A stretch of DNA of 64,000 nt, from contig NZ_WIOK01000027.1 in NCBI RefSeq assembly GCF_009467825.1, positions 1 through 64,000 of the forward strand. The letters run 5' to 3'. Below the pieces are notes generated by a model. It had not been told where the DNA came from and searched no databases. It worked only from the letters and a program-made list of their open reading frames with translations. The stretch's first letter is position 1. Each line of letters starts with the position of its first letter. Below, piece by piece: positions 1,764 through 43,551 of the stretch. The position numbers and the translations under genes were made by a program. Source of the DNA: Cyclobacterium xiamenense (lineage in GTDB: Bacteria > Bacteroidota > Bacteroidia > Cytophagales > Cyclobacteriaceae).

Positions 1764-2776
1764 TTGTTCTTCTCTGGCATATCGATGTTTTGTGACTTTT
1801 CGTTGATATCCTTTATTACGTCATCCAATTCATCTGCAGAAAACACAATGTGGTTCAATAATTCTTTTTTCTCTGCTGGCAAATCAGACAGTTCAATTTC
1901 CAGCAAATTCACCAGCCCCATAAGGCGTGCAAGCGGAGCCCGTACCACATGCGACTGCACCCAGGCAATGTCTCGCAGCCGCTTATTTTGCTGCTCCACG
2001 GTTTGTATGTAGGCTTTTTTCTGTGTGACATCATTGGCAAGAACCAATTTTGCGGGTACCCCGTCAAAACTTATCCTATTGGAGCTAATTTCCACGGTAA
2101 TCAACTGTCCGTTTTTTTTGGTATGTAGAAAGGTGCCTGCGCTTCGTAGCCCAGGAATTGCTTTGCCTTCCTCCACCGCTTCGTACATCTTTTTCCGCTC
2201 CTGTTCGGGACGTATATCCGCGATGGTCATGGACAGAAACTCGCTGCGGGAATAGCCGTACGATTGAATTGCCGCTTCGTTAACATCGAGGAATCGGAGT
2301 GAATCCTGATCGTATACCCACATCGGGAGCGGGCTCAAGTGAAACAGCTCCCGGTACCGAAGTTCGGATTGTTCGAGGCGATTAAAAACTTTTTTCCGTT
2401 CGATGCTGTACACGATGCTTCGGGAAAGGATATCCGGATGAATTTCGTCTTTGACGAGGTAATCCGACATGCCAAGTGCAATGGACTTGATGGCAAAATT
2501 TCGGTCTACGTACCCGGTCAGCACCACCACGGGAACTTTACCGGCGAGGCGAAGAATTTCCTTGATCAACTCTTCTCCGCTTTTATCCGGCAAGGTCAAA
2601 TCAAGTAATACCAGGTGGTAGTCCTGTATTCGCTTGGTGGAAGCACTTTCGAAAGTAGGCGCCCGGTCAATGCTGCACGAAGGGAAAATTTCTTCAATCG
2701 CTTCCGATACCAGTACAAAGTCTCCTTCGTTGTCTTCGATTACTAAAAGATTTAGGTAGTCGTATCCAGGTGACAT
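1760..2776 (-). CDS. Receiver-PAS-DHp signalling protein lacking a kinase catalytic domain
   Basis: A 338-residue two-component protein. Domains in order: receiver (1-125, phospho-acceptor Asp59 in LLDLTLP), PAS (about 135-255, HLSPLPMWVYD...), and a DHp/HisKA-like helix pair (about 260-330) with an H-box SHVVRAPLARLMG at His276. The protein ends 62 residues after His276, so the HATPase_c domain of an ordinary hybrid kinase is absent. It cannot phosphorylate itself and may act as a phosphotransfer hub or dimer partner (inference). A longer reading frame exists upstream but would overlap the neighbouring regulator gene; the ATG at 2776 is preferred because it starts 5 bases after that gene. 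It belongs to a leftward cluster of four two-component genes. Confidence 0.85.
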   Translation of the reverse strand: MSPGYDYLNLLVIEDNEGDFVLVSEAIEEIFPSCSIDRAPTFESASTKRIQDYHLVLLDLTLPDKSGEELIKEILRLAGKVPVVVLTGYVDRNFAIKSIALGMSDYLVKDEIHPDILSRSIVYSIERKKVFNRLEQSELRYRELFHLSPLPMWVYDQDSLRFLDVNEAAIQSYGYSRSEFLSMTIADIRPEQERKKMYEAVEEGKAIPGLRSAGTFLHTKKNGQLITVEISSNRISFDGVPAKLVLANDVTQKKAYIQTVEQQNKRLRDIAWVQSHVVRAPLARLMGLVNLLEIELSDLPAEKKELLNHIVFSADELDDVIKDINEKSQNIDMPEKNN

Positions 2777-2780
2777 GGAA

Positions 2781-3206
2781 TCAGTTTTTTGACGGAAGCT
2801 GAACCAGAGAAAACCAGAATGCTTCGACTTTCTGAAGTATTTCCTGATAACTTTCAGCCCCCACAGGTTTGGTAATATAGCTATTCGCGTGGTTTTGGTA
2901 CGATTCAAGCACGTCCCGATGACTGGAAGAAGTGGTCAACATAATTACCGGTAATTGCTTCAAGTCGTTTGATGTTTTAATGAAGCGCAAAACCTCCTGT
3001 CCGTTCTTCTTGGGAAGATTGATATCCAGTAAAACCAGGTCCGGTACCCCATTTCCGGACGCGTTGATGCAGGCAGTAAGAAGGGCTACGGCCTCTTCCC
3101 CGTCTTTGGCGTAGGTTACGTGCAAGGGAATGCGCAGGTCTTCCAGCGCTTCGGAGATCAACAAAATGTCCCCTTCATTGTCTTCAATTAAAAAAAGCTT
3201 CAACAT
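2781..3206 (-). CDS. Single-domain response regulator (CheY/Rcp1-like)
   Basis: A 141-residue stand-alone receiver domain with no output domain. The acidic pocket is IEDN (residues 7-10), the phospho-acceptor is Asp61 (LVLLDINLPKKNG), the conserved Thr is at 91-92 (MLTTSS), and Lys113 is in ITKPVG. The INLPKKNG context is typical of the Rcp1-like regulators that pair with phytochrome-type or PAS/GAF histidine kinases. It precedes the receiver-PAS-DHp gene with a 4-base gap and follows the PAS/GAF kinase gene by about 180 bases, so it is probably a partner of that kinase and passes phosphate within this cluster. That assignment is an inference from position. Confidence 0.92.
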   Translation of the reverse strand: MLKLFLIEDNEGDILLISEALEDLRIPLHVTYAKDGEEAVALLTACINASGNGVPDLVLLDINLPKKNGQEVLRFIKTSNDLKQLPVIMLTTSSSHRDVLESYQNHANSYITKPVGAESYQEILQKVEAFWFSLVQLPSKN

Positions 3207-41064: not shown

Positions 41065-42150
41065 TCAGGGGTCCAAACGAAAGGTAAACGTCTCATACGC
41101 TCCGGTACCCCAGGCCAAATGCCGGGTAGCGGGAGAAATGGCAAACAGCGGAGAAAAGGTTTTGACCGTCACTTCCAGACCGTTGAACTCAAGTAGCCGC
41201 AACCAGCCGTCCCCACCGTTGCCGTGCCATCCCCCACCGAGGGCCTGGGCATTGAAGGTCATTTGATGAACTTTTCTACCTGCGGCATTGGTATCGGTCC
41301 GGAAGCCCACATGCCCCTCGGGGTTGTCTGGGTCTCCGATATGACCGGAAAATACCAATTCGATATTCTTAGACGGTTTTACCAATTTCTCCCAGACCGC
41401 TTTCCCGTAGTTTCGATCGCTGATCGGGTAAGCCTCCGTTTCGATGAACTCGCTGTTTCGGTCCAGGTAGCTGTGATTCAATAAAATTACCCGGTGGTCG
41501 GCATACGCTTCCCGGCTTATCAATTCTCTGGCCCATTCCAGGCTCGCATCCCTTGGTGCAAACTCAATAACCAGGATCAGAAATTTGTCTCCGTCGGGCG
41601 ATTCAAACTCGTAACTCGCATTGAGTAAGGTGGGCATTCCCTGCGCATCCAATCCATGATCCCGAAGCATCCCTCGCGTAAAGCGGTTTTTTTCAATCGG
41701 AAAATACCGATCGTAATAGCTGACCCTGTTTTCGACGTTTTTTATTCCAAAATCATGATTACCAGTCGTGGCAATAAACGGTACCTGCTGATCAAATTTC
41801 CCCATAGACCGGGAAACGGCCTCCCATTGTTCCCTTCCCGTTTGGTCAGCGATGATGCCGTCCGGAATTTGCAGGGCATTGTGTTCCACCAGATCGCCCA
41901 CATGCAACACCAGTTCGACCTGCAGGGGCTCGATCTGATCCAACACCCAATGAACCATTAGGTCCAAAATGGGTTGGTTACGCTGAAATTTCACATAGGA
42001 TTGTGTATCGGGAAAAAGCACCAATGTCCAGGCGTCTTCGTCTTCCAGTGATGGGGATTGAAACGGTTTTTCTTGCGTCTGCGCAAGTGCATTTCCACCA
42101 CTAAAGGCGAGTAATAGTACGAAAAGCAAGCGAAAGGCAGCCCTGTTCAT
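41065..42150 (-). CDS. Secreted metallophosphoesterase (calcineurin-like)
   Basis: A 361-residue protein with a cleavable signal peptide (MNRAAFRLLFVLLLAFSGGN, cut near ALAQ). The metal-binding motifs of the calcineurin-like family occur in order: LFPDTQSY, HVGDLVEHN, TTGNHDFG, LLNHSYL and FSGHIGDPD. The first motif has Gln where many members have His, which is common in this PDTQ-type branch. It acts in the periplasm or outside on a phosphoester that is unknown. It lies downstream of the phosphohexomutase-like gene on the same strand with a 37-base gap. Confidence 0.92.
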   Translation of the reverse strand: MNRAAFRLLFVLLLAFSGGNALAQTQEKPFQSPSLEDEDAWTLVLFPDTQSYVKFQRNQPILDLMVHWVLDQIEPLQVELVLHVGDLVEHNALQIPDGIIADQTGREQWEAVSRSMGKFDQQVPFIATTGNHDFGIKNVENRVSYYDRYFPIEKNRFTRGMLRDHGLDAQGMPTLLNASYEFESPDGDKFLILVIEFAPRDASLEWARELISREAYADHRVILLNHSYLDRNSEFIETEAYPISDRNYGKAVWEKLVKPSKNIELVFSGHIGDPDNPEGHVGFRTDTNAAGRKVHQMTFNAQALGGGWHGNGGDGWLRLLEFNGLEVTVKTFSPLFAISPATRHLAWGTGAYETFTFRLDP

Positions 42151-42187: not shown

Positions 42188-43234
42188 TCAGTTCACATTG
42201 ATGACCATTTTGCCCAAAGATACAACAATTTTCAATAAGCGATCGTGGATGTTTTTTCGCGAGGTAGCGAAGGACTCCTTGTTGTAACAGTCCGTAAAAT
42301 CACTCAAATGCAAAAACAATTTTTCACCTCCCTGGCTCAGTTCCACCGTGATTTTAAGGCCGCTGCTGTACTCCAATTGGACAATGTCCACCTGCCGAAG
42401 TTCTGGTTCACTTTTTCTTCCGGTAAGCTTGTTGAAAAAAAGTTGTTTTTTGTAATCGGAAATACTGACCAATTCCTCGTGCATGGCATCGGAAGGCGGC
42501 TTGCTGCGAAAGCGGTCGAAAATCTTCTTGTTCTCCCCTTCCGAGCTGATATTAAACGTCTTTTCTCCGTATAATTTGTAGCGAATTTGCAGGTCTACAT
42601 GAAAGTCGAACAAGCTTTTTTCTTGCTGCTTTATTTTCTTTACCAGGGAATAAATGAGCCCCAGTTGCTTTTCCACATTCTTTTCCTTCTCCAGGTCCAT
42701 CAGCACGTGGTTGCGCTCGTCAAATGCCAGAAACTCGGCAAAATCCTCCGCTGTATCCAACACCCGTTCGCGTAGGTCTTCGAATCCGGCGTGGGACTCC
42801 TTGTAGGCACCGTTATTTTTCGTGACGATTTTATCAATTTGCTGAGACAAAACAATCCCTTTGATCACCAATTTGGTTTTATCCCGGTCAAAATCGGGGT
42901 ACTCCTCTTCGAATAAAAACGCCTGCGCCAACAATGCCGCCTGCTGATGGGCATTGAACACCAAAAATTTCCCTTCCGGATTGGGATATCCGATGATGGT
43001 TCGATCGAGGGAATGATCAAAGCCCACCACAAAATCGTAATCCAGTCCTTTGACTTTTTCCAGGGCTGGAAGCAAAAATTTGTAGTTGAGGTTTTCGTCC
43101 GGATTGTCTTCCGGAGAGTAATACAGAGCTTCGAGCTCCCAGTCACTTACCAGATTTGATCCTTTCCTGGAATCCGGTAGGTAAATCAATCCTTTGGGCA
43201 TCACATTAACTTCAACAGGCTGGTCGTTTTCCAT
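42188..43234 (-). CDS. Degenerate phosphohexomutase-like protein (probable pseudoenzyme)
   Basis: A 348-residue protein that aligns by eye with the C-terminal two thirds of alpha-D-phosphohexomutases such as PgcA. The metal loop D-x-D-x-D-R appears as DHSLDR (73-78), then FNAHQQAALLAQAFL (compare TGNQIGALLLDYL), LVIKGIVLSQQIDKI (compare VVKTIVTS) and ESHAGFEDL (compare DTLTGFKFI). The sugar loop GYEES is FDERN (171-175), KQQEKSLFD and FRSKPPSDAM follow in family order, and the phosphate loop RPSGTEPK is ELSQGGEK (298-305). Domain I with the phospho-serine is absent. The reading frame is intact and continuous, so it is not a simple pseudogene. A regulatory or structural role is likely (inference). 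Confidence 0.75.
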   Translation of the reverse strand: MENDQPVEVNVMPKGLIYLPDSRKGSNLVSDWELEALYYSPEDNPDENLNYKFLLPALEKVKGLDYDFVVGFDHSLDRTIIGYPNPEGKFLVFNAHQQAALLAQAFLFEEEYPDFDRDKTKLVIKGIVLSQQIDKIVTKNNGAYKESHAGFEDLRERVLDTAEDFAEFLAFDERNHVLMDLEKEKNVEKQLGLIYSLVKKIKQQEKSLFDFHVDLQIRYKLYGEKTFNISSEGENKKIFDRFRSKPPSDAMHEELVSISDYKKQLFFNKLTGRKSEPELRQVDIVQLEYSSGLKITVELSQGGEKLFLHLSDFTDCYNKESFATSRKNIHDRLLKIVVSLGKMVINVN

Positions 43235-43551
43235 GGGTGCGTATTTTCAAATTTGAGGATGTACTTGGTTTGTGTACATTTCCGATGAGCAAGCCCGGAT
43301 GATCAGGTAACGTATTTCCGCGTTTCCGGGCGGAAGGATTAAAGGTCAAAATTATGTTTTAAAAGACGACAAAGCAAGTCGGCAACGGAAGCATTATTAA
43401 ATAATTCTCAGATTCCTGACAAATTCCACAGCTGGTTCCATCGACTGACGAACAGCCTTCTTCTCGTTTTCCCTGTTTGCGGCCTTGAATGGGGTTTTAT
43501 TCCGTAGAGGATTTCGCTTTTCTGAAAAAGGAGTGACGAAGCCGGCTTCCC
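43235..43551. other. Gap between the sulfotransferase-like and phosphohexomutase-like genes
   Basis: About 317 bases without a gene. A palindrome TCAAATTTGA lies at 43249-43258 just before the start of the phosphohexomutase-like gene, and a TTCCGC...GCGGAA hairpin lies near 43316-43335. Neither has the features of a terminator. Confidence 0.5.

Follow-up and report, generated by a model that had tools for sequence, protein, structure and literature searches.

A phosphoglucomutase relative without domain I, kept by selection in Cyclobacterium and very probably turned to a non-enzymatic role

What is a protein for that has the body of a phosphohexomutase, has lost the domain and loops that catalyse, and is kept nonetheless? 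The question is raised by a reading frame in the window, the whole stretch of 64,000 nucleotides of Cyclobacterium xiamenense DNA analysed here. On the minus strand this frame runs unbroken from ATG to stop over 348 amino acids; the same frame on the plus strand of 42188-43234 is interrupted by stops. A preliminary description had called the frame intact and had quoted from its product the loops DHSLDR, FDERN and ELSQGGEK, all of which we recovered, within residues 72-78, 169-176 and 297-305, respectively. Relatives of similar build, called short forms below, fall into four subgroups, A to D, the window protein being a member of A; PGM denotes the full-length phosphoglucomutase. The protein and its parts are as follows.

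42188..43234, minus strand: open reading frame of a phosphohexomutase homologue without domain I, 348 amino acids and stop, with orthologues
42956..43189, minus strand: domain II counterpart, about residues 16-93 (from A-to-B and B-to-PGM profile alignments; approximate limits)
43001..43021, minus strand: counterpart of the metal loop, FDHSLDR (DPDADR in PGM), residues 72-78, from alignment and conservation
42947..42949, minus strand: His96 of NAHQQ, invariant in 25 short forms (alignment A3); the PGM consensus has Asn
42620..42955, minus strand: domain III counterpart, about residues 94-205 (from profile alignments; approximate limits)
42707..42730, minus strand: counterpart of the sugar loop, LAFDERNH (GGEES in PGM), residues 169-176; subgroup A conserves its remodelled form
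42191..42619, minus strand: domain IV counterpart, about residues 206-348, where conservation is highest
42320..42346, minus strand: counterpart of the phosphate loop, VELSQGGEK (RPSGTEPK in PGM), residues 297-305, from alignment and conservation

When its own genome was searched, the window protein matched, besides itself, only the full-length PGM (G000:C51, L002; E 5.9e-11), to which it is 19% identical and which is itself matched by all four Pfam PGM domains, though only weakly by domain IV. The window protein matched none of PGM_PMM_II, III and IV; its sole Pfam match was to an unrelated family, below the cut-off (E 0.044), and searches of NCBIfam and of PDB sequences returned no match. 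PGM_PMM_II was matched by two of 21 short forms, both below that domain's cut-off. Against a PGM from a related genome the E value was 1.1e-22, and matches at E ≤ 0.001 were obtained in 111 of 118 genomes of the same family, most of them PGM-sized frames (~575-600 amino acids) covering query residues ~50-340. Profile-profile comparison with PGM gave 99.5% for subgroup A (E 2.3e-22, raw score 170.7), 99.9% for B (E 8.7e-32, raw score 238.8), 99.6% for C (raw score 176.1) and 99.7% for D. In a control, five column shuffles of subgroup A reached at most 0.6%, and 20 column shuffles each of A, B and C gave top raw scores of 35.9, 22.3 and 25.2, the true score of A being nearly five times the best of its shuffles; chance similarity was rejected on these shuffle-controlled scores. 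Since a direct search of PDB sequences with profile A2 gave no match, the relationship is visible via the PGMs of related bacteria. A structure predicted from an alignment of nine close sequences was poor (mean pLDDT 48); a Foldseek search of the PDB with this model reached no E value of 0.001 or lower, and the 26 top hits, weak as they were (E from 2.5e-3 up), all belonged to the phosphohexomutase superfamily. Together, the alignments indicate that the 348-residue frame descends from a phosphoglucomutase and covers domains II to IV, with domain I absent.

The extent of domain II bears on what was lost. In subgroup B the alignment with PGM begins where domain II begins and is interrupted by a short deletion at the PNPEE region; residue 6 is where subgroup A starts to align with B. 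Consequently, only domain I appears to have been lost, not half of domain II as well, and domain II of the window protein is by alignment essentially complete, although its residues 6-56 are placed indirectly, from A to B and from B to PGM, since a direct local match with PGM begins only at residue 57. The preliminary description was thus right about the homology, about domains III and IV and about their order, and wrong in allowing the protein only the late part of domain II.

The consensus of 28 PGMs retains TASHNP, the metal loop, GEES, RDKD and RPSGTEPK (loops are named as in the herring PGM5 paper, PMC7761743). Subgroups A (n=17), B (n=17), C (n=6) and D (n=1) lack domain I and have none of these motifs in consensus; the ancestral loop set is retained in none of the 41 aligned short forms, and four further short-form loci also lack domain I and have altered loops. 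In the window frame the phospho-serine motif TASHNP is absent, as had been claimed, and the RDKD loop is gone; FDHSLDR does not fit the metal loop DxDxDR, no subgroup consensus having three Asp and Arg, and LAFDERNH and VELSQGGEK do not fit GEES and RPSGTEPK. Some B members have half-way metal loops (DPEGDR in L046, DPEFDR in L042), and loop 4 is shortened by deletion in subgroups B and C. We also considered a split gene with domain I encoded elsewhere. This was rejected, as PGM_PMM_I matches occur at only two places in the genome, both in open frames of their own (642 and 490 amino acids). Judged from its residues, the window protein can have no phospho-serine, for want of domain I, and ordinary bisphosphate binding would not be expected in the absence of the metal and phosphate loops.

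We searched 390 genomes of the window's family, which we take to be the Cyclobacteriaceae, with profile A3. The 54 short-form matches came from 52 genomes, which represent 14 of the 84 genera; all 12 Cyclobacterium genomes were among them, one with a partial match. They scored E 1.6e-72 or better; the next matches began at 2.9e-57 and were PGM-sized frames from there onward, bar one of 311 amino acids (G888) whose upstream end coincides with the end of a 5.3 kb contig. Among 390 genomes of the order, the matches listed outside the family (to ~1e-45) all lay in frames of at least 512 amino acids, and among 395 genomes of the phylum a single match beyond the family passed 1e-53, in an open frame of 589 amino acids; more divergent short forms may occur outside the family. 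Nine Cyclobacterium loci matched residues 1-348 at 70-84% identity, and of the nine named loci of this genus eight carry an intact short form. In the remaining one, of the Cyclobacterium qasimii draft, the short form is frameshifted (L010 8001-9046), which suggests assembly errors, since the full PGM of the same draft is also broken into several frames (L115, L116, L126). Two divergent short forms per genome were seen in two of the 52 genomes: at L042 they lie at 172-1176 and 2025-3071, ~0.85 kb apart on opposite strands, and the second case is genome G205 (G205:C70 and G205:C26; L100, L181).

The full-length enzyme coexists with the short form in all 29 short-form genomes checked, frameshifted in one draft. 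A PGM match was found in 10 of 10 Cyclobacterium genomes (the broken one included) and in 19 of 19 others, the latter with 56-80% identity to the window genome's PGM and in frames of at least 576 amino acids. Stops in some rows of this last set most likely belong to the stretch aligned with the query frame's long upstream part, judging by the nine intact Cyclobacterium PGM frames, which have 580-642 codons.

Selection on the short form was estimated by the Nei-Gojobori method from nine Cyclobacterium copies (36 pairs). The median dN/dS was 0.036 for the short form, dS being usable in 10 of 36 pairs and saturated or too small for use, the copies being too close, in the others; for the PGM of the same strains it was 0.033, from 21 of 36 pairs. 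The short form is under strong purifying selection within Cyclobacterium, nearly matching that on PGM. It changes somewhat faster than the PGM of the same strains, with pN to its own copy of 0.095-0.167 versus 0.066-0.115. Mean pN was 0.049 in domain IV versus 0.143, 0.117 and 0.155 in the other parts. Two features of a pseudoenzyme, lost catalytic residues and purifying selection, are therefore present. The preliminary description had held that the protein is kept by selection, which these values bear out, and had allowed that it might be a recent decayed copy if orthologues with intact loops and a full domain I existed; none was found among the 41 aligned short forms and the four further loci. 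Recent decay was rejected on the distribution (52 of 390 genomes) and on the dN/dS of ~0.04.

We then asked where along the protein the constraint lies, using conservation percentiles from 11 subgroup A sequences in comparison with PGM. The metal-loop counterpart ranked at percentile 45, the phosphate loop at 34 and loop 3B at 29, while the PGM catalytic loops rank at 79-99; the sugar-loop counterpart reached 93, NAHQQ 100 and domain IV 99, and domain III overall stood at 2. Thus, the conservation of this protein is not that of a mutase. Since the NGNQ stretch already ranks at 91 in PGM, what is new at NAHQQ is the residue and not the constraint. His96, Lys225 and Asp260 are invariant across the 25-row alignment of all four subgroups, and Lys125 (VKT in PGM) is nearly invariant in short forms. 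By these rankings, conservation has shifted off the metal and phosphate loops to domain IV, the NxHQ motif and the remodelled sugar loop.

The identity of the window protein to the short forms of B, C and D is only ~18-22%, and the subgroups therefore need not share one role. The PGMs of A, B and C hosts, on the other hand, retain ~68-80% identity. B hosts have PGMs with 71-76% identity to that of the window genome, but their B short forms reach only ~18-22% identity to the window protein; the divergence points to a burst of change after domain I was lost, followed by constraint. When 41 short forms and 28 PGMs were placed in one tree, the short forms all fell on one side (split support 100) and A, B and C were split from D and PGM (support 96), long branches weakening the tree. 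In the host PGM tree, where re-rooting may have displaced labels close to the root, A hosts form a clade (99), as do the four C hosts (100); a clade uniting the A, B and C hosts has support 80, or 100 with the outside genome N_G104 added; B hosts form no clade and the D host lies elsewhere. This pattern broadly fits one ancestral gene inherited vertically in a core group, with D separate or older. Against so simple a picture runs genome G040 (L046, L169), whose PGM joins the A hosts (support 97) and whose short form falls within B.

What, then, might the protein do? Because the catalytic domain and loops are lost and yet the gene is kept by selection, it very probably has a new, non-enzymatic job. 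We give about even chances to the more specific reading that it is a non-catalytic pseudoenzyme acting by contact with another protein. An ancestral duplicate of the phosphoglucomutase gene would have lost the whole of domain I, including the phospho-serine, and afterwards the metal-, substrate- and phosphate-binding loops, and would have been retained as a free-standing gene for a non-catalytic role. Another protein would be bound through the conserved body of domain IV and through the domain III face (NxHQ and the remodelled sugar loop) that domain I presumably once covered, and the bound enzyme, one of sugar-phosphate or envelope metabolism, may thereby be tuned. A protein-binding regulator is favoured because constraint sits in domain IV and at two domain III-side sites of the old cleft. 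We infer the mechanism, since the gene neighbourhoods revealed neither a partner nor a constant operon, and likewise the surface placement, as the structure model is poor (pLDDT 48). The window protein is probably cytosolic; inspection of its N-terminus by eye revealed nothing signal-like.

A new small-molecule site could explain the conserved AFDERN loop and the retained Lys125 just as well. The protein would then be a ligand sensor, whose cleft, with domains II-III on one side and IV on the other, now accommodates another small molecule, or a sugar phosphate in an altered manner, with the AFDERN loop, His96 and Lys125 contacting the ligand and a conformational change of domain IV passing on the signal. 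The high ranks of the sugar-loop counterpart (93rd percentile) and NAHQQ (top) in subgroup A and the near invariance of Lys125 speak for such a site, and herring PGM5, which is inactive, is reported still to bind glucose-1-phosphate (PMC7761743). However, the counterparts of the phosphate, metal and RDKD loops are ordinary or low in conservation, loop 4 is deleted in B and C, and without domain I the cleft is one wall short; we consider a sensor rather unlikely. Binding of a sugar phosphate as a signal had been proposed at the outset; in its ancestral manner it is weakly disfavoured, the metal, phosphate and RDKD loops being changed and no longer specially conserved.

Less probable again is a regulatory subunit or decoy that pairs with the full-length PGM and alters its activity or stability. 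Coexistence in 29 of 29 genomes, one PGM frameshifted, speaks for this reading, but PGM-type matches occur in most of the family, including genera that lack the short form, so that co-occurrence says little. Furthermore, the surface of domain 1, which forms the dimer in GlmM (PMC8573169), is absent. That the old scaffold carries a new enzyme with a different catalytic centre seems very unlikely: His96, Asp172, Arg/Lys174, Asn175, Asp260 and Lys263 are conserved in subgroup A, but only His96 and Asp260 of these are invariant in the 25-row alignment of four subgroups, and no enzyme family model of Pfam or NCBIfam matches the window protein. A decaying pseudogene or a chance resemblance, for which only the frameshifted C. 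qasimii orthologue L010 speaks, is scarcely credible given the broken PGM of that same draft, the dN/dS, the eight intact loci and the margin over the shuffled profiles.

As a rule a pseudoenzyme is spotted from point losses in its active site. In this case an entire catalytic domain has disappeared, and the three domains that remain are constrained nearly like the parent enzyme, in a family that is invisible to Pfam. Subgroups A to D offer a natural series of the change from enzyme to something else, with metal loops from DPEGDR to wholly changed, and the series points to a probably regulatory protein in Cyclobacterium and its relatives. It is possible, if somewhat less than an even bet, that the short forms are a bacterial pseudoenzyme family which began when the catalytic domain was cleanly lost and whose members now act as dedicated regulatory adaptors, with the former phosphate-binding domain IV as their working surface.

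Comparison with known relatives places the protein more closely. With its own PGM (G000:C51) it shares the order and spacing of domains II, III and IV and has retained the positions Lys125 (VKT), Glu224, Asp260 (DYQ) and Ser311; unlike that protein of ~580 residues, it has 348 and lacks the TASHNP domain and the catalytic loops. The nearest described case in the open-licence literature searched is PGM5, the inactive PGM1 paralogue of vertebrates, which has four domains, a nearly whole metal loop and glucose-1-phosphate binding (PMC7761743), whereas the window protein has lost an entire domain and the loops; among inactive phosphohexomutases it would be a domain-I-less variant. A precedent for this fold as a protein-binding regulator is GlmM, which inhibits the c-di-AMP cyclase CdaA via domain 2 contacts and, unlike the three-domain window protein, is a four-domain enzyme (PMC8573169). 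Slr1334-type proteins, glucose-1,6-bisphosphate synthases said to be widespread in Bacteroidetes, likewise form a distinct phosphohexomutase subfamily but are active enzymes of a superfamily described by four conserved regions (PMC9426568). Among the open-licence papers listed, judged by title and start of abstract, we found no domain-I-less phosphohexomutase family, and in that literature no report on phosphoglucomutase in Cyclobacterium. The suggestion that this protein type is not a described one therefore stands for the domain-I-less architecture and falls for inactive phosphohexomutases at large, since PGM5 is known.

Of the 35 loci whose surroundings were compared, 30 have 163 nt or more between the gene and the nearest upstream frame (some such frames are spurious), which suggests a promoter of the gene's own. 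The features flanking the gene are as follows.

43347..43377, minus strand: promoter-like element TTG-N20-TAATTTTG, both hexamer-like parts invariant in 10 aligned Cyclobacterium loci
43235..43346, minus strand: conserved leader of ~112 nt with two possible hairpins
41065..42150, minus strand: calcineurin-like phosphoesterase gene (PF00149), beginning 37 nt past the short-form stop

The form TTG-N20-TAATTTTG resembles Bacteroidota promoters. In the 10 Cyclobacterium loci, element and leader (43235-43377) show strong conservation, greater than that of the sequence farther upstream. The possible hairpins pair 43325-43331 with 43293-43299 and 43274-43279 with 43259-43264; compensatory changes were seen in 0 of 13 pairs, which leaves the structure unproven, and no Rfam family matches in the leader, the two matches elsewhere (E 0.39 and 0.94) being far under the gathering scores.

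No neighbour or operon partner is constant across the 35 neighbourhoods compared; gene context therefore does not name the function, and an operon partner was rejected as a clue to it. The genes upstream in Cyclobacterium encode a sulfotransferase and a class IV aminotransferase. The phosphoesterase lies immediately downstream in six of the 12 subgroup A loci compared and is absent from that place in L003, L007 and L008 of the same genus. By BLAST, the phosphoesterases of the window, L052, L053 and L058 form one cluster and those of L054 and L055 another, PF00149 being confirmed in L052, L055 and the window. Of 16 subgroup B loci, eight have an MFS transporter, eight a methyltransferase and eight a SulP permease; such recurrent neighbours in B and C may reflect shared ancestry of place. 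SulP-family permease genes lie near the short form in L041, L042, L046, L048, L092, L094, L097, L098 and L099, and in the last of these, a subgroup C locus, the SulP gene is 48 nt upstream of the short form.
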